Shown piece after piece: positions 4,755-52,071 of a stretch of DNA of 64,000 bases (position 1 is its first letter; each line of letters opens with the position of its first letter). The position numbers were made by a program, and so were the translations under genes. The stretch spans positions 1-64,000 of the forward strand of contig NZ_CAMLHC010000005.1 of the NCBI RefSeq assembly GCF_946479755.1, in the 5' to 3' direction. This DNA comes from an uncultured Chitinophaga sp. Its GTDB lineage: Bacteria; Bacteroidota; Bacteroidia; Chitinophagales; Chitinophagaceae. The notes under the pieces were generated by a model. That model searched no databases and was not told the DNA's origin. It was given only the letters and a program-made list of their open reading frames with translations.

Positions 4755-7700
4755 TTAGAAACTAACATTTACGCCCAGCGTATAGTTACGCAGAATGGGA
4801 TAGTAGGCACCGCCGGTATTGACTTCCGGGTCCCATCCTTTACGGTAACGGCTAAACGTAAATAAATTCTCTGCCGCCAGACTTACCCGCAGCCCGTCGA
4901 TGCCAATACGGCGGGTGGCAGCAGGTGACAACGTATAACCCAACTGTATGTTTTTGACACGGACATAGGAGCCGTTCAGCATCCAGTAGGAAGACTGCAC
5001 CGTATTACCGGTACCGGTATTGGGCACCAGCTCCATGCGCGGGTATTTGGCGTTGCGGTCAGGGTTTTCCGGCGTCCAGCGTTCGTCGAACTGCCAGCGC
5101 TGCACCGTAGCGGTATTGTTCAGCGCAATACCAGCATAGCCTTCCAGGTAACCTTTTACATCTGCCACTCCCTGCATCAGCACATTGAGATCAAAATTGC
5201 TGTACTTGCCGCCGAGATTAAGCCCGAAAGTATAGCGCGGAATACGGCTGCCCAGCACCACCCGGTCGTAAGCCGGGGTGATTTTACCATCCGGTTTTCC
5301 GTCGGGGCCGCTGATATCTTTATAGCGGATATCGCCCGGTTTTTTCTGGGAGCCCAGTGCGGACTGGTCTGGCCAGGAAGCGCCTTCGCTGGCATCTACA
5401 AACAGACCGTCGGCCACATAACCATAGTAGAGGTTCACAGGATAACCAATGAATAAAGGTGATCCGGCGTTGCCCACATTGCCTATCAGTCCGTTGGGTT
5501 GTAATACATTGCCCACGCCCACATCCAGTACTTTGTTGTTGATGATGCTGAAGTTAGCATCGATGTTATAGCTAAACTTACCCACGGTATTGCGGTGCCC
5601 CATGGTAAATTCCCAACCGGTATTTTTCAGTTTACCGGAGTTTTTCACGCCTACATTGAAGCCCAACACCCTGGACACGCTGCCACCGGGGCTAACGAGG
5701 ATGTCATACGTATATTTATCGAAGTAGGTAGCACTACCAGTAAGCAGTCCGCGCAAGAGGGTAAAGTCCACGCCCACATCGGTAGAGCGGGTAGACTCCC
5801 AGCGGAGCGTAGGATCTGCGAGGTCTACCAGTGTCACGCCGGTAGCCACCTGGTCGCCGAAGCTATAATTGTATTTCGTGCCCGTGTTCATAATATTCTG
5901 CCAACCGTAGTTAGCGATGTTCTGGTTGCCCAACGTGCCACGGGAGGCTTTTATTTTCAGTTCGTCCACCCATTTTACATTATCCTTCATAAATGGTTCT
6001 TCGGAGATGCGCCATCCGAGGGCCATTGCGGGGAAGAACGCATATTTTTTGGTGGCAGGGAAACGGGAAGAGCCATCATAACGCAGCACGCCTTCTACGA
6101 AATATTTACTGTTGAAGTTGTACTGCAGACGGCCAAAGAAAGAGGACAAAGCCCAGGCAGCAGCGCCGCCGTCATTAGTCTGGCCATCGGCAGATCCCAG
6201 GTTAATAGACGTCAGCGTATTACCGGGGAAGTTCCTGCGGAAAGCGCTCACGGAGTCGATCACAAACTCTTCAAAAGAATAGCCGGCCAGCAAGGTAAAG
6301 CTGTGCTTATCGAGCCGCTTATTATATTCCGCCAGCGCCTGCATGGTTTTATAGTTGGAATTGCGGTTGCCCTGCGTTAAGGTAGATGGTCCCAGGGTGG
6401 TAATGTTATTGAGATACTGCGTGGCGAGAAAACGTTTGTTATCGCCGTAGTTGATATATCCGCCGCCTACCGCAGAGAGTTTCAGCCCTTCGGCTACGTT
6501 CCAGTCCAACCGCAGGTTACCGTTCAGGTCTATGCCTTTTTCCTTGTAGAAAGATTCACTTTCCAGGTTGGACACCGGCGTGCCTTTGCCGTTGATGCCC
6601 ACGCCCCAGTCGCCGTTACTCATGCGGATAGGATATATCGGGGAATACCGCACTACCTGGCCAATCATGTCGAGCATATTGTTGAAGTCCAGCGTAGCCG
6701 GGGGCGCCGGCTCGTTGGTGGTGGACAGCGAAGAGGCGATACGCGTGGTGAGCTTCAGCTTGCGGGTAATATTGGTGAGCAGGTTTAAGCGCACGTTATA
6801 GCGGTCGTAGCTATTGCGGGCCACGATACCGTTCTGCCGGATATACCCGAAAGAAAGCTGGTACTGGCTGACCTGGTTACCATTGGCCAGGGAGATGTTA
6901 TGCCCTGTTTGTATGCCGTAGGGTTTAAAGAAGTCCTTGTAGAAATTGGAATTGGGATAATTATCCGGATTACTGCCATCTTTAAACTGTTGTATCTCCG
7001 CTTCCGAATAAGATCCTGGTACTGCTTCGTTCATGGCCTGTGCAAACTCCCATGAGTTCACTGATTGCGGCAGGGCCGTCGGTTTCTGCGTACCCACGTA
7101 ACCGTTATAGTTCAGTTTCAGTTTGCCGATGGCGCTGCCGGATTTGGTGGTAATGAGTATCACCCCGTTGGCCGCGCGGGCGCCGTAGATAGCGGCGGAA
7201 GACGCATCTTTCAGTACGGACACCGCTTCCACATCGTTGGGGTTTACGTCGTTGAACGAGTTGACCGGCATACCATCCACGAGGATGAGGGCGCCGGGGC
7301 CTGCGCCGAAGGAGCCTACGCCGCGCACCTGTATTTCACCGCCGGCGGCGCCGGGCCTGCCGGAGCGCTGTATCACCGTTACGCCGGGCATCTGGCCGGT
7401 GAGGGCGTTGGACAGCTGTGGTACCGTCCGGTTATTGACTTTTTCCGCGTTGATCTGCGATACCGATCCGATGAGTTGTGATTTTTTCTGGGTGCCGTAG
7501 CCTACCACCACCACTTCGCTGATGGCGCTGGCTTCGGGATGCAGCACTACATTGAGCGTGTTGTCGGTTCCTACCTGGACGGTATAAGGCTTGTAGCCAA
7601 GGATGCTGAATTTCAGCGTTTCGCCGGCGGAGGCCCTGAGCACAAAGGCACCTTTGGCGTCGGTGATGGTACCGCGGGCGGTGCCTGCCACGCCGACGGA

Positions 7701-8156
7701 TACGCCGGGAATGGGGTTGCCCTGTTCATCTTTTACCGTACCGCGGATATCGGCGGGCACTGCTGCCGACGGCGCAGGAGCGGCCGGAGGTTCCGGTTTG
7801 CGGGAGACAACGATCATTTTATCTTCGATCGTAAAGGTAAAGGGCTGGCCTTTCAGGATGGCGGTAAGCACTTCCTGGAGGGAGGCCTTGCGAAAATCAG
7901 CGTCTATAGGCGATGACGCTTTCAGCTCCCGGTAATCGTAAAAGAACCGGTAGTTGCTTTGGTGTTCGATGGCCCTGAAGACTTTGTCCAGCGGCATCTT
8001 TTTTCCCGAGAGGCTGATGGACTGGGAATAACCGGTGGCATTTACCTGTAGAAAGGCCACCAGTAGTAACAGTGCGGTCAATTTCATAATAAGCAGACTT
8101 TTACTGACTAAAAGCCCCTTTGGTGGCGAAGCTTTTGCATAACGAAGGGAATGCAT
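4755..8156 (-). CDS. SusC/RagA TonB-dependent receptor with STN domain
   Basis: A 1133-residue TonB-linked outer-membrane importer. Seen in order: a signal region (a strong hydrophobic stretch starts at Met24, an alternative start), an STN/secretin-like domain at about residues 50-115 that talks to FecR, a carboxypeptidase-D-like beta-sandwich at about 135-210, the SusC signature around SEVVVVGYGTQKK, a plug with GARAANGVILITTKSG, and a C-terminal beta-barrel ending in Phe. The STN domain and the FecR/sigma genes just upstream point to substrate-induced transcription. It pairs with the SusD gene downstream. The start at 8156 is taken because SusC proteins of this phylum often have a short extra N-terminus before the hydrophobic core. 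Confidence 0.94.
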   Translation of the reverse strand: MHSLRYAKASPPKGLLVSKSLLIMKLTALLLLVAFLQVNATGYSQSISLSGKKMPLDKVFRAIEHQSNYRFFYDYRELKASSPIDADFRKASLQEVLTAILKGQPFTFTIEDKMIVVSRKPEPPAAPAPSAAVPADIRGTVKDEQGNPIPGVSVGVAGTARGTITDAKGAFVLRASAGETLKFSILGYKPYTVQVGTDNTLNVVLHPEASAISEVVVVGYGTQKKSQLIGSVSQINAEKVNNRTVPQLSNALTGQMPGVTVIQRSGRPGAAGGEIQVRGVGSFGAGPGALILVDGMPVNSFNDVNPNDVEAVSVLKDASSAAIYGARAANGVILITTKSGSAIGKLKLNYNGYVGTQKPTALPQSVNSWEFAQAMNEAVPGSYSEAEIQQFKDGSNPDNYPNSNFYKDFFKPYGIQTGHNISLANGNQVSQYQLSFGYIRQNGIVARNSYDRYNVRLNLLTNITRKLKLTTRIASSLSTTNEPAPPATLDFNNMLDMIGQVVRYSPIYPIRMSNGDWGVGINGKGTPVSNLESESFYKEKGIDLNGNLRLDWNVAEGLKLSAVGGGYINYGDNKRFLATQYLNNITTLGPSTLTQGNRNSNYKTMQALAEYNKRLDKHSFTLLAGYSFEEFVIDSVSAFRRNFPGNTLTSINLGSADGQTNDGGAAAWALSSFFGRLQYNFNSKYFVEGVLRYDGSSRFPATKKYAFFPAMALGWRISEEPFMKDNVKWVDELKIKASRGTLGNQNIANYGWQNIMNTGTKYNYSFGDQVATGVTLVDLADPTLRWESTRSTDVGVDFTLLRGLLTGSATYFDKYTYDILVSPGGSVSRVLGFNVGVKNSGKLKNTGWEFTMGHRNTVGKFSYNIDANFSIINNKVLDVGVGNVLQPNGLIGNVGNAGSPLFIGYPVNLYYGYVADGLFVDASEGASWPDQSALGSQKKPGDIRYKDISGPDGKPDGKITPAYDRVVLGSRIPRYTFGLNLGGKYSNFDLNVLMQGVADVKGYLEGYAGIALNNTATVQRWQFDERWTPENPDRNAKYPRMELVPNTGTGNTVQSSYWMLNGSYVRVKNIQLGYTLSPAATRRIGIDGLRVSLAAENLFTFSRYRKGWDPEVNTGGAYYPILRNYTLGVNVSF

Positions 8157-41860: not shown

Positions 41861-43135
41861 TTAATATTTCAGTGACTTGGTCAGGTTCAGCCAGATCCGC
41901 CAGAAAATAGACTGGTCTTCGGTAATAATCTCTGCATCCGCCAGGATCCCCGGCTTCAGCTTAATCACAGAATCAGCCGCTGTTCTTACCAACGCCACCC
42001 TGGAGAAAAAAAGGCTGTCTTTGACCGGTATGTCCGAGATATAATCTACTTTCCCTCTCAGGTATCCATATTCCTGGTAGGGATAACTACGCACCCTGAT
42101 CATCACCTGCTGCTCTTTTTTTACCCTCGACGACGCTGCCTGCGGGATCAGCACTTCTCCGTAATAATCGTTTTTTCCGGCATTGATATAAAACAGGATA
42201 TCGCCTGTTTTATGCAGCTGGTTTTCCTGCAGGAAATCCCCATAAACCAAAAATCCGGCGGAGGGAGTAGTGATGACATATTGTTTTTTCCAGTTCTCCG
42301 CATCGCTGATGAAAGTATTCAGCGACTGGTAGAATTTCTTTTCTTCTTCGATAATCTGGTTATCTATCTCGGAGAGTTCTTTGTCTTTTGCAGACAACGC
42401 GCTCCTGTTACTGATAAGCGTATTCTCCATCTGCGGGATCACCTGCCGCTTGGCAAGCAGCACGGCCTTTTTCCGCTGCAGTTCCAGCGGGCTGATGATC
42501 CTTTTTTCCGCCAGCAGCCGGTATTTTTCATACTCTGCTTCCGCCAGGGCCAGCTCATCTTTCTGCAGTTTGTAGATCTCCTCGGTACGGGCGGTCTGGT
42601 CGTTTACATACTGTACCTCGTTCTGTATAAAATGTTTTCGTTTTTGCAATATTCCTTCCCTGTTGACCGCCTTGTAGTTGAGGTAAGCCGTATAGAAATT
42701 CTGATAACTGGCCTGCAGCTCCCCCAGGTCCAGCTCTGTAGGGGCTACGAGATGGGTCAGCTCCTGCATGGAAGCCCCGCTGTTGCGTATTTCCTTCAGC
42801 CTGTCCAGGATGTCGATGGCTTGCTGGTGCTCCGCGATACTTTCCACATAGGCGATGTCCGTATTTTTCTCCACCCATTGCCCTTCTTTGGCCAATATCT
42901 TCACGAGATTACCATTCACCTTGCTGATGAGCGCTTTGGGCGCGTCGCTGGTACTGAACCGCATGGATACCTGTACCATTTCAGGATACCGGATAAACAC
43001 CGAAAGGCCGATGATGAGCAGTACCGTCAGCAACACAAAGGAAATACCCCTTTTCATGAGCCAGGATGGTGGCTTGGTGATGATCTCCTGGAGATCTTCC
43101 GAATGGATATCTTCCTGATAATTTTTCTTTGCCAT
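41861..43135 (-). CDS. HlyD-family membrane-fusion protein
   Basis: A 424-residue periplasmic adaptor of a type I exporter. It has a short cytosolic N-terminus, one transmembrane helix (about 30-48), a biotinyl-lipoyl-like half-motif (ISKVNGNLVKILAKEGQWVEKNTDIAYVES), a long coiled-coil hairpin (about 105-285) and a beta-barrel end (GEVLIPQAASSRVKKEQQVMIRVRSYPYQEYGYLRGKV). It is of the kind used with C39-peptidase ABC exporters of double-glycine peptides. It lies four bases after the ABC transporter gene and ends the operon. Confidence 0.92.
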   Translation of the reverse strand: MAKKNYQEDIHSEDLQEIITKPPSWLMKRGISFVLLTVLLIIGLSVFIRYPEMVQVSMRFSTSDAPKALISKVNGNLVKILAKEGQWVEKNTDIAYVESIAEHQQAIDILDRLKEIRNSGASMQELTHLVAPTELDLGELQASYQNFYTAYLNYKAVNREGILQKRKHFIQNEVQYVNDQTARTEEIYKLQKDELALAEAEYEKYRLLAEKRIISPLELQRKKAVLLAKRQVIPQMENTLISNRSALSAKDKELSEIDNQIIEEEKKFYQSLNTFISDAENWKKQYVITTPSAGFLVYGDFLQENQLHKTGDILFYINAGKNDYYGEVLIPQAASSRVKKEQQVMIRVRSYPYQEYGYLRGKVDYISDIPVKDSLFFSRVALVRTAADSVIKLKPGILADAEIITEDQSIFWRIWLNLTKSLKY

Positions 43136-43139
43136 GATC

Positions 43140-45326
43140 TTAATTTCCCAGTTCCAGCTGGTTTTTTACCAGCTCAAAATATTTTCCCCGTTTGGCCGTC
43201 AGCTCCTGGTGCGTCCCCTGTTCAACGATATTCCCTTTCTCCAGTACGATGATATTATCGGCATTTTTTACGGTGCTGAGGCGATGCGCCACTACAATCA
43301 CCGTACGCTGGTCAAAAAACTGGTCCAGCCTTTCCACGATGGCTTTTTCATTGTTGGCGTCCAGCGAATTGGTAGCTTCGTCGAGAAAGATAAAAGTGGG
43401 GGCTTTATAGACGGCGCGGGCTATCATCAACCGCTGCCGCTGGCCCTGACTGATACCTTTTCCGGCCGTGCCGATTTTTGTTGCCAGCCCAAAGGGCTCT
43501 CCGGCAATAAAATCTTCCATGTTGGCTATATGTACCGCGTTCTGTAACCTCTCCTCATCGGGAAGCTCATCATTGATAGCAATGTTTCGCTCTATCGTAT
43601 CCGCATATACGTAGTTGTCCTGCAGCACAAAACCACAACTATCTCTCCAGAGCCCAAAATCAATCTGATCCAGCCGTTTACCGCCTACCAGTATCTCTCC
43701 TTCTTCCGGGTTATAATAGCGTAATAACAGCTTCAGGATGGTTGTCTTCCCGCTGCCGCTGGCCCCGACGATCGCTGTTGTTTTACCGGCAGGAAAACTC
43801 ATGTTCAGTTTGGTAAATATCGGTTCGTTGCCTGCGCCATAATAGCGGAAGGTAACGTTGCGCAGCTCTATCGAGGTATTGTCGGGCAACCTGGTCAGGT
43901 AGTCTTTCCGGACGTCCACCTCTTCTTCTGTTTCATAGATTTCGTTGAGGCGTTCGAGGCTTATTTTTGCATCCTGGTAAGATTGCAGGAAGCTGAGCAA
44001 CGATTCTACCGGGTTGCTGACCATGCCTACGATATACTGAACGGCCATCATCCCTCCCAGTGTTATTTCGCCGTCGATCACCGCTTTGGCTGATATGTAA
44101 GTGATGAGGATGCCCTTGGCCTGGTTGATGGCCATCGATCCGACGGACTGGTACTGGGACAGCGCCAGGCTCTGCACCCGGAAACGGAACAGTTTGGCCT
44201 GCAATGTTTCCCATCCCCACCGTCTGCGCTTTTCGGCGTTGTTCAGTTTAATGTCCTGCATGCTCTGTATCATCTCCACCATGTAAGTCTGGTTTTCGGA
44301 AGATATCTTAAAGCGCTTGTTGTCCAGCTCCCGCCGGTAGCGCATAAAAGCCAGTATCCACGCCGTGTATAGCGCTGTAGATATGAGAAAGACCAGGAAA
44401 ATAGCTTTGTTGTAGATGATCAGCAGGCTGCCGAAGATAAGCATGTTCACCAATGAAAAGAGGGTGTTCAGCGTACTGCCTGTCAGGAACGCCTCGATGC
44501 GTTGCTGATCGGCCATCCGCTGCATAATATCACCGTGTGTTTTAAGATCGAAGAACCCCATCGGCAGCTTCATGATCTTGATCAGCAGGTCTGTCAGGAT
44601 AGAGATATTGACCCTGGTACTGATGTGCAACATGATCCACGACCGGATGAAAGACACGGCGGTACTGCCTGCAAAAAGCATCAGTTGGGCAATCAGGATG
44701 AGGTTAATAAAGCTGATGTTTTTTGTGTTGATCCCGATGTCCACCACGGACTGCGCCAGGAAAGGCGCTATCAGCGATAACAGCGTACCGAGCACCATGC
44801 CCAGTATCAGCTGAATAAACAACCGCCGGTACTTATAGAAATAGGTAAATACCTTGCTCCATCCTAAAGCCCGGACTGGCTCCTCCTCATCGATCTGGTA
44901 AAAATCGGGACCGGGGCTGAGTATCAGCGAGAGCCCGTCATGCTGATCTTTCACAGAGAACCAGTGTGTTTTGAACTCCCGCTCATCGTAGGAAGTCAGC
45001 CCACTGGCCGGATCGGATATATAATATTTATCTTTCCTGATCTTATACAGTACCACAAAGTGCTTCTGGTCCCAGTGCAGGATACAGGGCAGCTCTACCT
45101 GGTGAAGCTGTTCCAGGTTCAGGCGGGCGCCCAGTGTCCGGAATCCCAGCTTTTCAGCGGCTTCAGAGATACCCAGCAGGTTAACGCCATTTTTCGTTGT
45201 CTGACAGAGCTTCCGTATTTTATGGATGGACACCAGCTGTCCGTAGTATTTAAATACAATACGCAGACAGGTGGCGCCGCAGTCCATCATGTCCATTTGC
45301 TTGTAATGTGGGAAACGTTTCAGCAT
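43140..45326 (-). CDS. C39-peptidase ABC exporter (PCAT type)
   Basis: A 728-residue peptidase-containing ABC transporter. The N-terminal C39 domain has an intact catalytic set: Gln10, Cys16 in MDCGATCL, His89 in KHFVVL and Asp105 in YISDPA. Six transmembrane helices follow at about 165-450. The nucleotide-binding domain has Walker A GASGSGKTT, signature ISQGQRQR and Walker B FIFLDEAT. It should cut double-glycine leaders and export the mature peptide. The obvious client is the 129-residue GG-leader protein in the same operon. An HlyD gene follows at once, and a TolC gene is divergent nearby. Confidence 0.95.
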   Translation of the reverse strand: MLKRFPHYKQMDMMDCGATCLRIVFKYYGQLVSIHKIRKLCQTTKNGVNLLGISEAAEKLGFRTLGARLNLEQLHQVELPCILHWDQKHFVVLYKIRKDKYYISDPASGLTSYDEREFKTHWFSVKDQHDGLSLILSPGPDFYQIDEEEPVRALGWSKVFTYFYKYRRLFIQLILGMVLGTLLSLIAPFLAQSVVDIGINTKNISFINLILIAQLMLFAGSTAVSFIRSWIMLHISTRVNISILTDLLIKIMKLPMGFFDLKTHGDIMQRMADQQRIEAFLTGSTLNTLFSLVNMLIFGSLLIIYNKAIFLVFLISTALYTAWILAFMRYRRELDNKRFKISSENQTYMVEMIQSMQDIKLNNAEKRRRWGWETLQAKLFRFRVQSLALSQYQSVGSMAINQAKGILITYISAKAVIDGEITLGGMMAVQYIVGMVSNPVESLLSFLQSYQDAKISLERLNEIYETEEEVDVRKDYLTRLPDNTSIELRNVTFRYYGAGNEPIFTKLNMSFPAGKTTAIVGASGSGKTTILKLLLRYYNPEEGEILVGGKRLDQIDFGLWRDSCGFVLQDNYVYADTIERNIAINDELPDEERLQNAVHIANMEDFIAGEPFGLATKIGTAGKGISQGQRQRLMIARAVYKAPTFIFLDEATNSLDANNEKAIVERLDQFFDQRTVIVVAHRLSTVKNADNIIVLEKGNIVEQGTHQELTAKRGKYFELVKNQLELGN

Positions 45327-45379
45327 GTTTTAATTTGTCTCACTTCAGATCTGTATAATTACTATTACTTTCAGCTGGC

Positions 45380-46504
45380 TTAACGTCGATCTAATGTATA
45401 CTGGCGGATCGTCTTTTCAAGATTGGCAAAATCGATATCTTTCTCCACAATGATTTTATCAGCAGTTCTTATCAACAGGTATCTTGGAATGCCAATAAGT
45501 TTCAGTTTTCCAGCCAGCTTTTCCCCTTGTTTTTCATCGAGCCAATACTGCTGATAGCCGGAGGGCTTTTCTTTTAAGTATTTCTCCCAATCCGCTTTCC
45601 GGCTGGAGATGGCCAGTCCCGCTATGGCAAAGGATTTGTCATGACTGTTTTCCATTGCCAGCTTATCCAGGAAAGGATGCTGCCGGATACAGGGTCCGCA
45701 CCAGGTGGCCCAGACATCAATGAGCAGATACGGATACAGGGAGGCTAGTTTGTCGAAAGCCATCGTTCCTGCCATTGTTTCGAACTCCAGTGCAGGAAAC
45801 AGATGCTCGTTCAGGAGTGCCTGATTCACTGCCACATAATCCGAGAACCGTCTTAAAATATCATCGCGTTCTGCGCGGGAAAACCGGAGCGTGTCCAGCT
45901 TCTTTATGGCAGCCAGGATACTATCGCTGACAGTGTACGCCGAAGGTCTCAGTAACGACTTAATCCGCTGAAATGCTACATAAGCACTGTTGTGTTCTTT
46001 TATCAGCGAAAGCTCTTTGAGGTACCCAGCTGTGTTAATGCTGTCTGCGGTATAGAACATCAGGTCTTTTACCCGGATATTTTCGGGATACTGCAGGGTG
46101 ATATCTCTGAAAAGATCCTGCAGCCGGTTTTCCTTTCCCCCTTTTACGGCTATTTCACCTGATGCAGGGTCGAGCCGTAGCGTGATCAGCGGGGTATCCA
46201 ATACAAAATGTCTTTTTATAGCGGGGGTAACAGCGTTATTCTCCTGGTATTCCAGGCAAACAGATAAAGGCCGCGCGAAGTCAAAAGTACCATTCATTAT
46301 TCTGGAAAAAAAACCGGCGCTGTCCACAGACAGTCTGAAAGTATCATTAACCATTGTTAATACAAGGCAAGATGCTTTAGTACCGGGAGAAGGCTTTATA
46401 TATCCTTGTATGATGACATGGCTTCTCTCTTGTCCGTAGAACGGTAAGGGAAAAAGCACCAGCAGCAACACCATTCTGTATACTAACACTATCTTTGTCA
46501 TCAT
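45380..46504 (-). CDS. TlpA-like thioredoxin with DUF4369-like N-terminus
   Basis: A 374-residue exported protein with a signal peptide (ending about PFYGQ), an N-terminal beta-rich domain like those found before TlpA modules in Bacteroidota (about 25-125), a helical middle and a C-terminal thioredoxin domain with W-C-G-P-C in VWATWCGPCIRQHPFLDKL and the cis-Pro in GIPRYLL. It probably reduces or reshuffles disulfides in the periplasm. The start overlaps the stop of the preceding gene by four bases. It lies between the cysteine-rich peptide and its exporter, which points to a role in folding that cargo or keeping it export-ready. Confidence 0.88.
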   Translation of the reverse strand: MMTKIVLVYRMVLLLVLFPLPFYGQERSHVIIQGYIKPSPGTKASCLVLTMVNDTFRLSVDSAGFFSRIMNGTFDFARPLSVCLEYQENNAVTPAIKRHFVLDTPLITLRLDPASGEIAVKGGKENRLQDLFRDITLQYPENIRVKDLMFYTADSINTAGYLKELSLIKEHNSAYVAFQRIKSLLRPSAYTVSDSILAAIKKLDTLRFSRAERDDILRRFSDYVAVNQALLNEHLFPALEFETMAGTMAFDKLASLYPYLLIDVWATWCGPCIRQHPFLDKLAMENSHDKSFAIAGLAISSRKADWEKYLKEKPSGYQQYWLDEKQGEKLAGKLKLIGIPRYLLIRTADKIIVEKDIDFANLEKTIRQYTLDRR

Positions 46505-47214
46505 TTATTTTTTTTATCCATTAGCCGGTTATATAGGTTCCTGCCGTAAAAACTGTTCCTGACGCTGTCCGGAAGCTCATGGTAGAAGCTAATGTAGCGG
46601 TCATAGGAAAAGTCCGGCGCCGCTGGCAGCAGGTAAGTCATTTCGTACGATCCACGGTGGGTGACAGACGCGGTATAATAGAGGTCCGACAATGCTTTCC
46701 TAACCACAGACAGTTCCTCTTCGTACCTGTTCAATTCATAACCCGGTCCGCTACCCTCGACAAGCGTCATCAATTCTTCCTGTTTACCCAGCAGTACCGC
46801 TTTCCTTTGCGAGAGCGACTTCCAAAGATTATAAAAGGGAGATTCGGTAGTGATCACCACGTCATATCCTACTTTATTATTGCTGAACTTTTTTTGCACA
46901 AAAGAGCAGACATACCTGCTGTTGTCCAGCAGGATAAATCCACCCGCGCTATATATGTTGATCATGGCAATAGAAGGTGTATCAATCCGGTTTTCAAATG
47001 TAAAACTGCCCTCTTTTATAACGGTTTTACAGACATCGGTGGTGTTAATAAACTGCAGTGTAACTGTATCGCCATTTTTCAAACTGAAAGAATGCGCATC
47101 TCCCAATATGCTGTTATCTATCTTACCCGTTATCACATAGTGATATTGGGCTGTGGCAAAACCGGGGCCCAGCAATAGAAAGAACAGACCAACCCAATGG
47201 AGATACTGTTTCAT
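46501..47214 (-). CDS. Exported DUF4369-like protein without thioredoxin domain
   Basis: A 237-residue protein with a signal peptide (ending near GFATAQ) and a beta-rich domain (YVITGKIDNSILGDAHSFSLKNGDTVTLQF) similar in layout to the N-terminal part of the next gene, then a helical region (LSQRKAVLLGKQEELMTLVE). It has no C-x-x-C motif, and the only cysteines are scattered. It may be a paralogue of the TlpA-like protein that lost, or never had, the thioredoxin part. Both genes have their own signal peptide, so a simple frameshift split is unlikely. Confidence 0.7.
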   Translation of the reverse strand: MKQYLHWVGLFFLLLGPGFATAQYHYVITGKIDNSILGDAHSFSLKNGDTVTLQFINTTDVCKTVIKEGSFTFENRIDTPSIAMINIYSAGGFILLDNSRYVCSFVQKKFSNNKVGYDVVITTESPFYNLWKSLSQRKAVLLGKQEELMTLVEGSGPGYELNRYEEELSVVRKALSDLYYTASVTHRGSYEMTYLLPAAPDFSYDRYISFYHELPDSVRNSFYGRNLYNRLMDKKNK

Positions 47215-47229
47215 GGTATTATTTTAATA

Positions 47230-47278
47230 GCGGAATGAGTCTTAGCTAAGCGACACGTTTAGGCAAGGCTCATTCCGC
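47230..47278 (-). promoter_or_regulatory. Long stem-loop behind the GG-leader peptide gene
   Basis: On the minus-strand RNA a 10-bp perfect stem is extended by 4 and 4 more pairs with two single mismatches and a 9-base loop. It fills most of the 80-base gap between the GG-peptide stop and the next gene. No U-run follows, so it is more likely an RNA-stability or attenuation element that would let the peptide be made in excess of the machinery genes. Confidence 0.55.
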
Positions 47279-47294
47279 ATGTTCATTTTAAGAT

Positions 47295-47684
47295 TTAGTT
47301 AGACCCAAACACCGCCAGGTAGCTGGCACAATCCCCTCCAATGCGCCTCGCTTCGGCGCAAGCATTGCTACAACCGGAGTCGCATAATGCCGCTGTATTC
47401 CAGCCAGAAGAAGTTGGAATATTAAGCGTTACGCCTGTTGATGATTTCAGGGTACATGTACAGGAAGTGGTTCCTCCTCCTTCTCCAGGGTCCTGCTGCT
47501 CATCCCATCCGTCCATGCAGTCCATTACGCCGTCCATTACCTTATACTTGGGAATACATGTACCGTCGTGGCATGCAAATTCGTTGAAGCCACACAGGCC
47601 ACCGCCGGTTACGTCTTTCAGGCTCTCTCTGGACAGTTTTTCGATACCTAATGCATCTAAGTTTTTCAGCGAAATTTTTTTCAT
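47295..47684 (-). CDS. Double-glycine-leader, LDLa-like cysteine-rich peptide
   Basis: A 129-residue small protein. Residues 1-28 form a leader of the Bacteroidota type (KKISLKNLDALGIEKLSRES, then LKDVTGG), with Gly27-Gly28 as the predicted C39 cleavage site. The mature part of about 101 residues has ten cysteines (31, 38, 43, 56, 75, 77, 101, 105, 109, 119). Residues 31-62 match the LDL-receptor class A pattern C-x4-F-x-C-x2-G-x-C-I-P ... D-G-x2-D-C-x-D-x2-D-E. The Ca-ligand acids D51, D55, D61 and E62 are kept, while cysteines 4 and 6 of the canonical module are M50 and D65. Its function is unknown. A bacteriocin, adhesin or toxin-like secreted peptide is possible. It is encoded within its own export operon. 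Confidence 0.85.
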   Translation of the reverse strand: MKKISLKNLDALGIEKLSRESLKDVTGGGLCGFNEFACHDGTCIPKYKVMDGVMDCMDGWDEQQDPGEGGGTTSCTCTLKSSTGVTLNIPTSSGWNTAALCDSGCSNACAEARRIGGDCASYLAVFGSN

Positions 47685-47803: not shown

Positions 47804-49444
47804 CTAGAAAAAGTTTTTTAATTCTGTTACGCGGTAACTGTCGGGCAGCTCCCTTCCATTGATATAAATCGTTGGGGTAGCTCTTATTTTCATTGTTTCG
47901 CACCAGTCGCGCATCGCCAGTATCTTTCCTGACTGCTCGCTGAGCTCTCCGTTCATGGGATATTTTTGGGCAAAGGTGTCATAGTTCTTCACGGGCGCGA
48001 GATACCAGTCATCCAGGGCAGACTGCATGCTTACGGTATCGTATTTTTGTTGGATCGCCATCAGGTGTGCCACCACGCGTGTCCTGATATCACCTCCCTC
48101 TCCTGATACGGCGAATATTATGCGCAACCTTACATCCGGGTTAGTATGGATAATATGCTCCAGCTCCGGATGGGCTTTGGCACAGGGACCGCAGAAAGGA
48201 TTGCATACCTTGATAATCTCATGGGTAGCATGAGGATTTCCCACCACGATACCTAATCCGTCCACAGGAGCAATAACCCGGTCACTTTTGTCCAGCAGCG
48301 CTTCAAATATTTCCGGGTTATAACGCAGCTTCTTCCATTTCTTTTCATAGTCTCTGCCATCGCGGGCGCTCTTCAATTCAGGAATAACGGCATTGGTCAG
48401 CAATAAAAAAGATAGCCCTCCCAGTATCACCACCGCCACCGGGTAGCGTGTGAAACCTTCGCTGAGCACAACATTGCCGGACAGGCAAAAAGCAGCGATC
48501 GTTGTATTGGCCGCCAGCACAACCTGCACAGCGAGGCACAGCGGGCACCATTGCTTCACTACTTTCCATTGATAGAAGACAGAAAACAACACGTAAGGAG
48601 CTACTAACAACGATACCACAGACCATAGCAGCAAAAAGCGCATGTTCCCGGGAAACAATATCTGCGTAGTGAAAAAAACAGCAAAAAAAGAAAAGCCCCA
48701 TACAGCCCAGCTGATTCCCATAAAAGAAGCCCGGGAAGAAGACAGCACGGCATCACAGTTGACTTTTTTACCCTTGCCGCCACATACTTCTTTAATGAAA
48801 GGATTATGCGCGTCGATCTCATTCCAGATCAGCAGCGAAGAAACGGCAAGTCCGAGGAAGGAAAAAAGGAGAAAGCCCGTTCCAATCCAGGTATACATTC
48901 CGACAGGTAGTGAAAACAGATGGCCAGCTGCGAACAATATGGCCGCCAAAGCAAGGCATAGCGGGACTCGCTTTAACAGCATGCGGTCTCTTTGCTTTTT
49001 CCTGTTGGCAGCAAGATTGAGTTCGTTCTTTGGGTTAGCCGTATCCATCAGCAGGATGATATGCTTATCCATTTTTTCAAACTCATCCAAAGGCAATTGC
49101 GTAAGGCGGTCTGTCAGTGGATCGAGATATTCTATTTGCCCGTTCTCCGCGCGTGTCACAATAGTGAAACCTGCCCGGGGCCAGTCATCCTGCTGAATGG
49201 AACAGATAAAAGGCGTCTCAAATGCTTCATAGCTATGCGGTCCTTTTTCGATAGCGGCAGATGCTATACCGTATTCGAAAAGCACGTCCTTTATAGAAAG
49301 CAGGGAAGGATATGCTACGTGGTTATGCAGTGCTTCCGACAATCCACTGTTCGTAAAGTTGACTTTCAGGTTTCCTAGCAAATAACGACAGGTATTAAAG
49401 AGATCGTGCTCTCTCCTGTGGGCAAACATGGTAAATAGGGTCAT
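47804..49444 (-). CDS. C39-like / VKOR / thioredoxin fusion protein
   Basis: A 546-residue membrane thiol-oxidase fusion. The N-terminal ~130 residues resemble a C39-like domain (YPSLLSIKDVLFEYGI; IEYLDPL) but lack the catalytic Cys and His, so it should not cut. A VKOR domain with several helices follows (about 155-355), with loop cysteines C221 and C230 (VNCDAVLSS) and the active pair C300-P-L-C303. The C-terminal DsbA/thioredoxin domain carries C418-G-P-C421 in NPFCGPCAKAHPEL. This set would make disulfides in the periplasm using quinone. It is the first gene of the operon that encodes the ten-cysteine GG-leader peptide, 119 bases upstream of it. Confidence 0.9.
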   Translation of the reverse strand: MTLFTMFAHRREHDLFNTCRYLLGNLKVNFTNSGLSEALHNHVAYPSLLSIKDVLFEYGIASAAIEKGPHSYEAFETPFICSIQQDDWPRAGFTIVTRAENGQIEYLDPLTDRLTQLPLDEFEKMDKHIILLMDTANPKNELNLAANRKKQRDRMLLKRVPLCLALAAILFAAGHLFSLPVGMYTWIGTGFLLFSFLGLAVSSLLIWNEIDAHNPFIKEVCGGKGKKVNCDAVLSSSRASFMGISWAVWGFSFFAVFFTTQILFPGNMRFLLLWSVVSLLVAPYVLFSVFYQWKVVKQWCPLCLAVQVVLAANTTIAAFCLSGNVVLSEGFTRYPVAVVILGGLSFLLLTNAVIPELKSARDGRDYEKKWKKLRYNPEIFEALLDKSDRVIAPVDGLGIVVGNPHATHEIIKVCNPFCGPCAKAHPELEHIIHTNPDVRLRIIFAVSGEGGDIRTRVVAHLMAIQQKYDTVSMQSALDDWYLAPVKNYDTFAQKYPMNGELSEQSGKILAMRDWCETMKIRATPTIYINGRELPDSYRVTELKNFF

Positions 49445-49680: not shown

Positions 49681-50997
49681 ATGCGAAACACCCCTTTGTT
49701 AACCGTCCTTTGTTGCGTCATCAACAGCGCCGCTGTTTGCCAGACAAAGCTGAACCTGGACCAGTCCTTCTCATTATTGCTAACACAAAATGAAGATGTG
49801 CGCCAGGCCAACATCACCGTATTGCTTGCACGTGTGGAAGTGAAAGATGCGCGTAACGGCTTTCTTCCCACGCTGTCATTCGGCGCAGGACATACCTATA
49901 ACCTCGGTCTTGCCTTCGACCAGATCGCCGGGCAACTGGTAACCGGCAATAAATGGACAAATACCGCCAATGCGACTATCAGCACACGCGCCACCGTATT
50001 CCAGGGATTCAGCCAGATCAATAAACTCAAGCAGTCCTTACTGAGCCTGGAAAGTAAAGAACTACAAAAAAGTCAGCTTAACCAGTCGCTGAAACTGGAA
50101 CTGCTGTCCAGGTATTTCGATGCTACCGCCAGCCGCTCGCTGTATGAAGTCAACCTGAAACAGTTACATTTTTCACAACAACAACTGGAAGAGGAACGCA
50201 CGAAATACGAACTGGAGACCAACACATTGGTAGATGTCACGCAGGCTGAAAGCCAGGTGGCCAATAATGAGCTGAACAGCATCGTCAGCAATACGGCTTA
50301 CAACAGCAGTCTTATTTCCCTCAAGCAGGTACTGGGCATACCATTGACCGACTCGGTATTCCTGGAAACACCTAACCTGGAAATAGCGGCGCCAGGGGAA
50401 AAACTATCCAGTGGTACGCCCACACAGGACCCATCCGTTCAACTGGCCGAGCTGTCTGTCCGCCAATCTGCATTGAACTTAAAATATGCAAAAGCGCCCT
50501 ATTACCCTACCCTGAGTTTCTTCGGCGCATACGGTACCAACTACTCCTCCGTTCGCAGGGATTTTGGAAGCGATCACTACATGCCTTTCTGGACGCAGGC
50601 CGATCAGAACAGGTCGTTGAACTTCGGTTTGTCGCTCTCCATACCCGTCTTCGATGGTTTTAAAACACGCAATAACATCAGCAGGTTAAAACTCGACCTG
50701 GAAAACAAACAATCGGTGCTGAATAAAGTAAAGACGGAGCGGGAGAAAGTATTGTTACTTGCCATACAGGAATATCAGAAGTCTGTAAAGGAATACCAGG
50801 TATTGCAGGTACAGCATCATGCGCTGGAAAAAAATTTTTATGCCATGAAAGAACGGTATGACATTGGCGAGACCAGCGCGATGGAATACAATAAAGCCCT
50901 GCTGGATTACAACGTGGCCGAAACCAATCTGATCAAAGCCAAATACACCCTGATGTACAATATGGAAGTTATCAGGGTGTTAAAAGGAGAACGATAA
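49681..50997 (+). CDS. TolC-family outer-membrane efflux protein
   Basis: A 438-residue outer-membrane channel protein with a signal peptide (ending about AAVCQ) and two repeats of the TolC alpha-helical barrel (LNLDQSFSLLLTQNEDVRQANI, NGFLPTLSFGAGHTY; second repeat LNLKYAKAPYYPTLSFFGAYG, ERYDIGETSAMEYNKALLDYNVAETNLIKAKY). It is divergent from the GG-peptide operon with a 236-base AT-rich gap. It would complete the ABC-HlyD-TolC type I export path for that operon. Confidence 0.92.
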   Translation: MRNTPLLTVLCCVINSAAVCQTKLNLDQSFSLLLTQNEDVRQANITVLLARVEVKDARNGFLPTLSFGAGHTYNLGLAFDQIAGQLVTGNKWTNTANATISTRATVFQGFSQINKLKQSLLSLESKELQKSQLNQSLKLELLSRYFDATASRSLYEVNLKQLHFSQQQLEEERTKYELETNTLVDVTQAESQVANNELNSIVSNTAYNSSLISLKQVLGIPLTDSVFLETPNLEIAAPGEKLSSGTPTQDPSVQLAELSVRQSALNLKYAKAPYYPTLSFFGAYGTNYSSVRRDFGSDHYMPFWTQADQNRSLNFGLSLSIPVFDGFKTRNNISRLKLDLENKQSVLNKVKTEREKVLLLAIQEYQKSVKEYQVLQVQHHALEKNFYAMKERYDIGETSAMEYNKALLDYNVAETNLIKAKYTLMYNMEVIRVLKGER

Positions 50998-51111: not shown

Positions 51112-52071
51112 ATGAAATTGAATTTTTGGAATCATCTGTTTAAAACAGATGACCACTACACCTACAACCCTTTTGAAAACGGCGTGGAAGTACTGAATTT
51201 CTGGCCCGGCCAGGCTTCCAAAGATTTATGGCTGTATCAATTCGTCACCACCAGGTTCGGGGACATGCTGAACAAAGAAAATTCGCTATTACTGGCTTCC
51301 CTCTTCGGGCGAAAATCACATATCCGGAAAAGCCCTTCCAGGACCAAAGTATTTTTCTCCGGTGAAAACCTGGCCAGATTTCCTAAATACAAAGATTACT
51401 GTGCCGACGTCGTTGATCTTGCTATCGGGTTCGATGATATCCGGCGGCCCGGTTATGTCAGGTTTCCGCTGTGGCTACTGTTCCTGTTTGAGCCAGAAAG
51501 CACCTATGATACTATTAAAGCCAGGGTGGAAAACATTTCGCGGGACATACCAAACATTATTCCCGGTAAACAACAGTTTTGTTCACTGATTTGCAGTCAC
51601 GATAAAAACGGGAACAGGGAAAAGTTGTTTCACCTTATCAATGCAGTCGGCAAGGTAGACAGCGCGGGAAAATATCTGAATAATACCAACGCGCTGAAAC
51701 AGGACTACCATGATAACAAAGTGGATTTTCTCCGGCAGTACCGGTTCAACATATGCCCGGAGAACACTAACAGGCACGGCTATGTGACGGAGAAGGTTTT
51801 TGAAGCCATTATGTGTGGCTGCATCCCGATCTATTGGGGAGCCGGTAACCATCCGGAACCGCAGATCCTTAACAGGGAAGCGATCCTGTTTTACGACGAA
51901 AGAAATCCGCAGGCGCTTTCTGATAGGGTGAAAACATTGCAGGGCAACACTCAAGCCTATACGGATTTTGCGATGCAGGACAGGTTTCTGCCAGGGGCAG
52001 CAGACCGTATCCATGAGATGTTCGTTGCCTTGGAACAAGGGATCAGGGAGAGATTGGCGAAGCATGGTTAA
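51112..52071 (+). CDS. GT10-family (alpha-1,3-fucosyl) transferase
   Basis: A 319-residue glycosyltransferase of family GT10. The donor-binding block FNICPENTNRHGYVTEKVFEAIMCGCIPIYWGA is complete, with the Glu of TEK and the following IPIYWG, and FFSGENLARFPKYKDYCADVVDLAIGFDD fits the N-terminal acceptor half. Such enzymes transfer fucose from GDP-fucose to GlcNAc or glucose. It is a single gene with a terminator behind it and no glycan-synthesis neighbours, so its acceptor is not evident. It has no signal peptide and should act in the cytosol. Confidence 0.9.
   Translation: MKLNFWNHLFKTDDHYTYNPFENGVEVLNFWPGQASKDLWLYQFVTTRFGDMLNKENSLLLASLFGRKSHIRKSPSRTKVFFSGENLARFPKYKDYCADVVDLAIGFDDIRRPGYVRFPLWLLFLFEPESTYDTIKARVENISRDIPNIIPGKQQFCSLICSHDKNGNREKLFHLINAVGKVDSAGKYLNNTNALKQDYHDNKVDFLRQYRFNICPENTNRHGYVTEKVFEAIMCGCIPIYWGAGNHPEPQILNREAILFYDERNPQALSDRVKTLQGNTQAYTDFAMQDRFLPGAADRIHEMFVALEQGIRERLAKHG

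Follow-up and report, generated by a model that had tools for sequence, protein, structure and literature searches.

What would a bacterium do with a secreted peptide built on an LDL receptor class A (LDLa) module? The question is raised by a small gene of a soil bacterium, in the first 64,000 positions of contig NZ_CAMLHC010000005.1 (assembly GCF_946479755.1, uncultured Chitinophaga sp.), a stretch that we refer to as the window. An earlier note on this DNA had described an open reading frame at 47295..47684 as coding for a double-glycine (GG) leader peptide with a ten-cysteine mature part, residues 31-62 of which fit the LDLa spacing. The frame is real and is read from the minus strand, from 47684 down to 47295, the plus-strand reading of the same coordinates carrying stops; the leader of residues 1 to 28, Gly27-Gly28 and the ten cysteines of the 101-residue mature part are all present as described there. 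Our overall explanation, which we consider somewhat more probable than not, is that the gene encodes an exported two-module protein with an LDLa head, most likely an antagonistic one. The leader fits the GG pattern in sequence and alignment at L-12, L-7, V-4, G-2 and G-1, positions that we take to be those of C39-exported GG leaders, and G27 and G28 are invariant in 7 of the 7 rows of alignment A1. Its scores against leader families stayed below the cut-offs (TIGR04149, 18.0 against 25; NF047798, 16.9 against 23.5; PF14406, 13.8 against 25).

The LDLa likeness is real. Residues 31 to 64 score 37.5 bits against Pfam Ldl_recept_a (PF00057; E value 2.7e-9), far over chance and above the curated cut-off of 24.1, LDL-receptor-family proteins head the PDB sequence matches (best 60 of 71) with their best stretches over these residues or nearby, and the predicted fold can be superposed on LDLa modules of solved structure (Foldseek/VIA). 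The model corresponds to a predicted LDLa module that retains the calcium-ligand side chains at D51, D55, D61 and E62, which we presume to be ligands from their positions in LDLR module 5; the head is probably held by calcium. Two of the refuting conditions set in the earlier note, a profile score no better than chance and a fold lacking the calcium loop, are not borne out. However, the LDLa stretch accounts for just four of the ten cysteines, and the earlier note missed the loss of its fourth and sixth (C4 and C6). In the alignment with LDLR module 5, whose cysteine numbering we assume to apply here, C31, C38, C43 and C56 stand for C1, C2, C3 and C5, C4 is replaced by Met50, and C6 is absent. 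The canonical LDLa disulfides are C1-C3, C2-C5 and C4-C6; since C4 and C6 are both lost, exactly one disulfide is gone. The six cysteines and three disulfides of LDLa are not all found in the module, and in view of its four cysteines without C4 and C6 we call it an LDLa-derived four-cysteine variant.

We examined the best 120 of 165 matches of a second homologue search, 15 of which fell outside the pattern and were left out of the C4 count; the following counts hold among the matches listed. C4 is absent in 23 of the 24 leader-bearing precursors with an LDLa core and present in all 132 modules of 81 other matches, mostly animal where named. The window peptide brings the leader-bearing members to 25, all of which keep the residues at D51, D61 and E62, while the D55 position is occupied by D (21), N (2) or H (2). 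A cysteine at C4 occurs in 1 of the 25, P0029, which has a GG leader and all six LDLa cysteines (42.1 bits) and whose canonical arrangement is possibly the ancestral form. Another relative, P0034, has a cysteine near the place of C6 and no C4.

The earlier note missed that the remaining six cysteines belong to a C-terminal module of their own. Its model (predicted local distance difference test score of 85, built from 8 sequences) found no match among known folds. LDLa occurs without this C-module, as leader, LDLa and stop, in C. solisilvae (three peptides) and in genome G063 (one), at 64, 66, 70 and 70 amino acids. The C-module occurs without LDLa in leader peptide L063 of genome G052 (profile 36.2 bits, E value 2.7e-9), where the leader ends in Ala-Gly and a short Gly/Cys-rich stretch precedes the module. 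As each half is thus also found without the other, the window peptide is, on sequence grounds, a fusion of two modules; its C-module is 58% identical to that of L063, versus 52 and 45% to those of the C. eiseniae sister operon. In Pedobacter, LDLa precedes a different C-terminal module; Sphingobacterium L008 and P0102 carry that same module (51 to 52 bits) behind a head of quite another kind. A third module (L076, L080, L085) likewise occurs with and without a front piece. Heads and C-modules seem to be mixed among relatives, in a modular family that the earlier note had missed. The L008 (8774-9136) and P0102 peptides are of GG type, with a head that looks EGF-like by eye.

The genes around the peptide bear out the expected C39/ABC machinery: VKOR-thioredoxin, peptide, DUF237, TlpA-like protein, C39 ABC exporter and HlyD follow one another on the same strand, with a divergent TolC-like gene beside them (Table 1). 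The exporter's C39 domain retains its active-site residues, which we take to be the Cys, His and Asp of the three motifs given in the table. The N-terminal domain of VKOR aligns to C39 (hhalign probability 94) and may only hold leaders, because the catalytic Cys and His are absent from it. The complete gene set was found in the window, in C. eiseniae L001, and in L019 and L021, where the TolC-like neighbor is 94, 73 and 74% identical, respectively; in G034 and G063, the part of the locus that was read showed VKOR and the peptide alone, and near L020 and L024 the threshold used gave no match to any of the five proteins. Beyond the TolC-like gene, a family 10 fucosyltransferase-like protein is encoded at 51112-52071 (50.3 bits; 87% identical in C. 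eiseniae).

Table 1. Features of the peptide locus in the window, with the evidence for each.
Feature	Positions	Strand	Evidence or size
Precursor gene: GG leader, LDLa and C-terminal six-Cys module	47295..47684	-	129 aa
Leader, residues 1-28 (...L17-S18...L22..V25.G27-G28)	47601..47684	-	Alignment
LDLa module, residues 31-64; four Cys; Ca-ligand positions D51, D55, D61, E62	47493..47594	-	Pfam; Foldseek/VIA
C-terminal part, residues 68-129; six Cys; predicted beta-beta-alpha-beta	47298..47483	-	Model
237-aa protein (DUF237), signal-peptide-like start (by eye), DUF4369-like	46501..47214	-	DUF4369 22.8 bits, below cut-off 25
374-aa TlpA-like thioredoxin with WCGPC	45380..46504	-	Thioredoxin_8 34.0 bits
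C39 peptidase-ABC exporter with DCGATC, HFVV, DPASG	43140..45326	-	Peptidase_C39 124.4 bits; alignment
HlyD-family adaptor	41861..43135	-	HlyD_3 40.2 bits
VKOR and DsbA-like thioredoxin, N-terminal C39-like domain	47804..49444	-	VKOR 63.3, Thioredoxin_4 35.6 bits
TolC-like outer-membrane protein	49681..50997	+	OEP 154.1 bits
Exchanged cassette: mature peptide, DUF237 and TlpA	45345..47605		Identity steps versus C. eiseniae L001

Comparison with L001 revealed sharp steps in identity that the earlier note had missed. VKOR, ABC and HlyD are 90, 97 and 96% identical to their L001 counterparts, with synonymous divergence (dS) of 0.47, 0.52 and 0.49, versus a dS of 1.64 for the peptide and identities of 53% for DUF237 and 51% for TlpA, for which dS was not computable (-1), a value that we read as saturation. 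At the upstream edge, identity goes from 113/118 (96%) in the VKOR-peptide spacer to 72/84 (86%) in the leader and 152/270 (56%) in the mature part, so that the boundary of the cassette coincides with the junction of leader and mature peptide. The DUF237 and TlpA stretch is 50 to 73% identical; from a point some 18 bases ahead of the ABC gene, identity is back to 96 to 97%. Beyond the limits of the cassette, 100-base steps are mostly 82 to 97% identical, with a minimum of 73% inside VKOR, in whose C39-like part (window 49005-49205) identity to C. eiseniae drops to 73 to 82%. The simplest reading of these steps is a replacement of the cassette by recombination, since a higher rate of protein change does not explain why synonymous sites are saturated in just three adjacent genes.

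We looked into the distribution of this system in 79 Chitinophaga genomes and found 9 PF00057 matches in 5 of them. VKOR homologues are present in 39 of the 79, and those that are full length at 65 to 90% identity occur in exactly the 5 LDLa genomes, the others being at most 40% identical, short fragments excepted. Of the 9 LDLa matches, 7 stand behind an intact VKOR gene, either alone or in tandem pairs, with two differing copies in one operon; the remaining 2 (G002 contig C12) come after a VKOR fragment. Hevein modules (PF00187) gave 3 matches in 3 of the 79 genomes, all linked to VKOR and behind a GG-leader sequence. These hevein (chitin-binding type 1) leader peptides were seen in the VKOR-linked slot of L081 (6539-6850; 47.6 bits, cut-off 27.8), L090 (6522-6851; 27.0 bits by protein scan, 29.2 by genome scan) and L097. 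The hevein copy of G056 may be damaged, because a transposase-like open reading frame (by eye; L077, about 7089-7900) intervenes between VKOR and the peptide and there is no in-frame Met ahead of the leader. A WAP-like head in the same slot falls just under its cut-off. In a pattern scan of 54 loci picked for VKOR, LDLa or leader matches, 46 loci had Cys-rich leader peptides, 71 in all; 32 of these loci belong to the 40 neighborhoods of more distant VKOR genes. Among the loci, L082 (3704-5871) of G037 has seven consecutive six-Cys GG peptides adjoining a C39 ABC gene, L087 (2494-3289) has three tandem leader peptides with identical leaders and similar mature parts, and the leader peptide of L084 (7560-7760) matches Toxin_7 weakly, its 15.2 bits falling short of the cut-off of 27. 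P0013, an LDLa-only peptide, bears a name that points to Chitinophaga sp. HK235, which is also the strain of the chitinocin paper; we rejected its identity with chitinocin, with whose mass the peptide is at odds.

We propose that the C39 ABC/HlyD/TolC-type exporter would cut the GG precursor after Gly28 and move the mature part outside, that VKOR-thioredoxin would form the disulfides, and that the DUF237 and TlpA pair would probably assist folding of the C-terminal module. The secreted product would then consist of an LDLa-derived, four-Cys and probably calcium-held N-terminal binding head and a six-Cys C-terminal module. As for its role, we consider it most likely that the product is antagonistic, either like a bacteriocin or toward eukaryotic microbes, and that the LDLa head is its exchangeable recognition part. 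Antagonism is also the least certain step, and we put it forward tentatively, a little short of an even chance.

Two groups of known GG-leader systems bear on this proposal. One group is the class II microcins (PMC10233263). They have a GG leader and type-I-like export, are not known to contain LDLa or hevein modules, and belong to other genera; the window peptide resembles them in leader and export. The nearest tested parallel is the bacteroidetocins, whose locus, according to the accessible part of PMC6671954, combines a GG peptide, a C39 ABC protein, a transmembrane protein and a thiol oxidoreductase, a locus type matched here if HlyD is counted as the transmembrane protein. They too are Cys-containing GG-leader peptides of Bacteroidota for which no immunity gene is recognised in that part of the paper, but they have leaders of 15 to 16 amino acids, mature peptides of 42 amino acids and class IIa likeness, in contrast to the 28-amino-acid leader and 101-residue mature part of the window peptide, its eukaryote-type domain, the VKOR-thioredoxin and the DUF237/TlpA pair. 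Antagonism is suggested by this parallel together with the two differing tandem copies, the patchy distribution and the cassette exchange.

The same data might be accommodated by a secreted signal, an adhesin or a calcium-dependent matrix- or ligand-binding protein, that is, no weapon, with LDLa and hevein heads tethering cells or enzymes to surfaces. In its favor, Chitinophaga are chitin-degrading bacteria, the family name of the hevein heads found in 3 of 79 genomes marks these as chitin binders, and no immunity gene was recognised at the locus, while the LDLa-only peptides are compatible with either view. Differing tandem copies, patchiness and cassette swaps are commoner in arms-race genes, however, and the differing tandem copies, the presence in 5 of 79 genomes and the swapped cassette make us regard a signal or adhesin as unlikely, albeit the best of the alternatives.

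Less probable still is that the C-terminal module is a toxin and that DUF237 and/or TlpA are its immunity factors, exchanged together with it for that reason. DUF237 lies directly downstream of every C-module peptide found (window, L001, L019, L021 and L063) and co-diverges with the peptide, and no DUF237 profile match was found near the LDLa peptides without a C-module (L020, L022, L023 and L024). Yet DUF237 and a WCGPC thioredoxin domain are joined in one protein in G052, and DUF237 is again fused to a thioredoxin in an orphan in G048, which better suits folding; because of the G052 fusion we favor a cargo-specific folding role for DUF237. Two points qualify the link between DUF237 and the C-module: the orphan in G048 shows that it is not strict, and, as all linked loci except L063 are closely related to one another (four of five), its independent support comes from L063 alone. 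An immunity function is further disfavored by the bacteroidetocins, which are described without an identified immunity protein in the accessible part of PMC6671954.

Two further alternatives concern the LDLa head itself. As animal receptors are the best-known carriers of LDLa modules, and as hevein heads and the WAP-like one just under its cut-off sit in the same slot, the peptide might act toward soil animals or protists as a decoy or mimic, binding the ligands of their LDL-receptor-type proteins. The Trp that presumably helps clamp ligand lysines in LDLa is, however, found in 1 of the 25 members among the matches listed, with L, K and others elsewhere, which renders classical lysine capture unlikely and a decoy improbable. 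Convergence of a small Cys/Asp-rich calcium loop, for which the loss of two of six cysteines in nearly all members and a domain of just about 34 residues could be cited, is the least probable of all, given a score 13 bits over the cut-off here, 40 to 47 bits in several relatives and the six-Cys P0029, which favors descent from a canonical LDLa.

We retain an exported two-module protein with an LDLa head as the preferred explanation. Seven members from Chitinophaga and Pedobacter (P0002, P0003, P0004, P0011, P0013, P0015 and P0019) are automatically named LDL receptor class A by NCBI; these are members of the same family by name only, and we found no account of their leader, export or modules. 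The earlier note had supposed that leader-borne LDLa peptides are not a described class. A literature search that covered the top-ranked papers on broad topics and a minority of subscription papers found no description of one, but the LDLa domain call already stands in the NCBI names. Hence the leader, the two-disulfide form, the modularity and the cassette exchange appear to be new, and the domain call is not. Compared with LDLa proper (PF00057), the peptide shares the cysteine spacing, the DGxxDCxDxxDE calcium loop and the predicted fold, but allows two disulfides instead of three, stands alone or with a private module, and has a bacterial GG leader.

In a broader view, for which we see the arguments as evenly balanced, Chitinophaga and relatives would possess a modular secreted-peptide platform, in which one leader/C39-exporter/VKOR machine serves interchangeable heads (LDLa, hevein and possibly WAP- or EGF-like), alone or on private Cys-rich modules, and in which swaps at the leader junction replace the mature part and the folding genes but leave the exporter in place. 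A single bacterial peptide exporter is likely to carry both LDLa, a domain known mainly from animal receptors, and hevein, known mainly from plant lectins. If this is true, the family would offer naturally minimised modules, such as an LDLa of about 36 residues with two disulfides, a test case for the bacterial acquisition and recombination of eukaryote-type binding domains, and defined candidate weapons or signals that come with their own disulfide-making genes.
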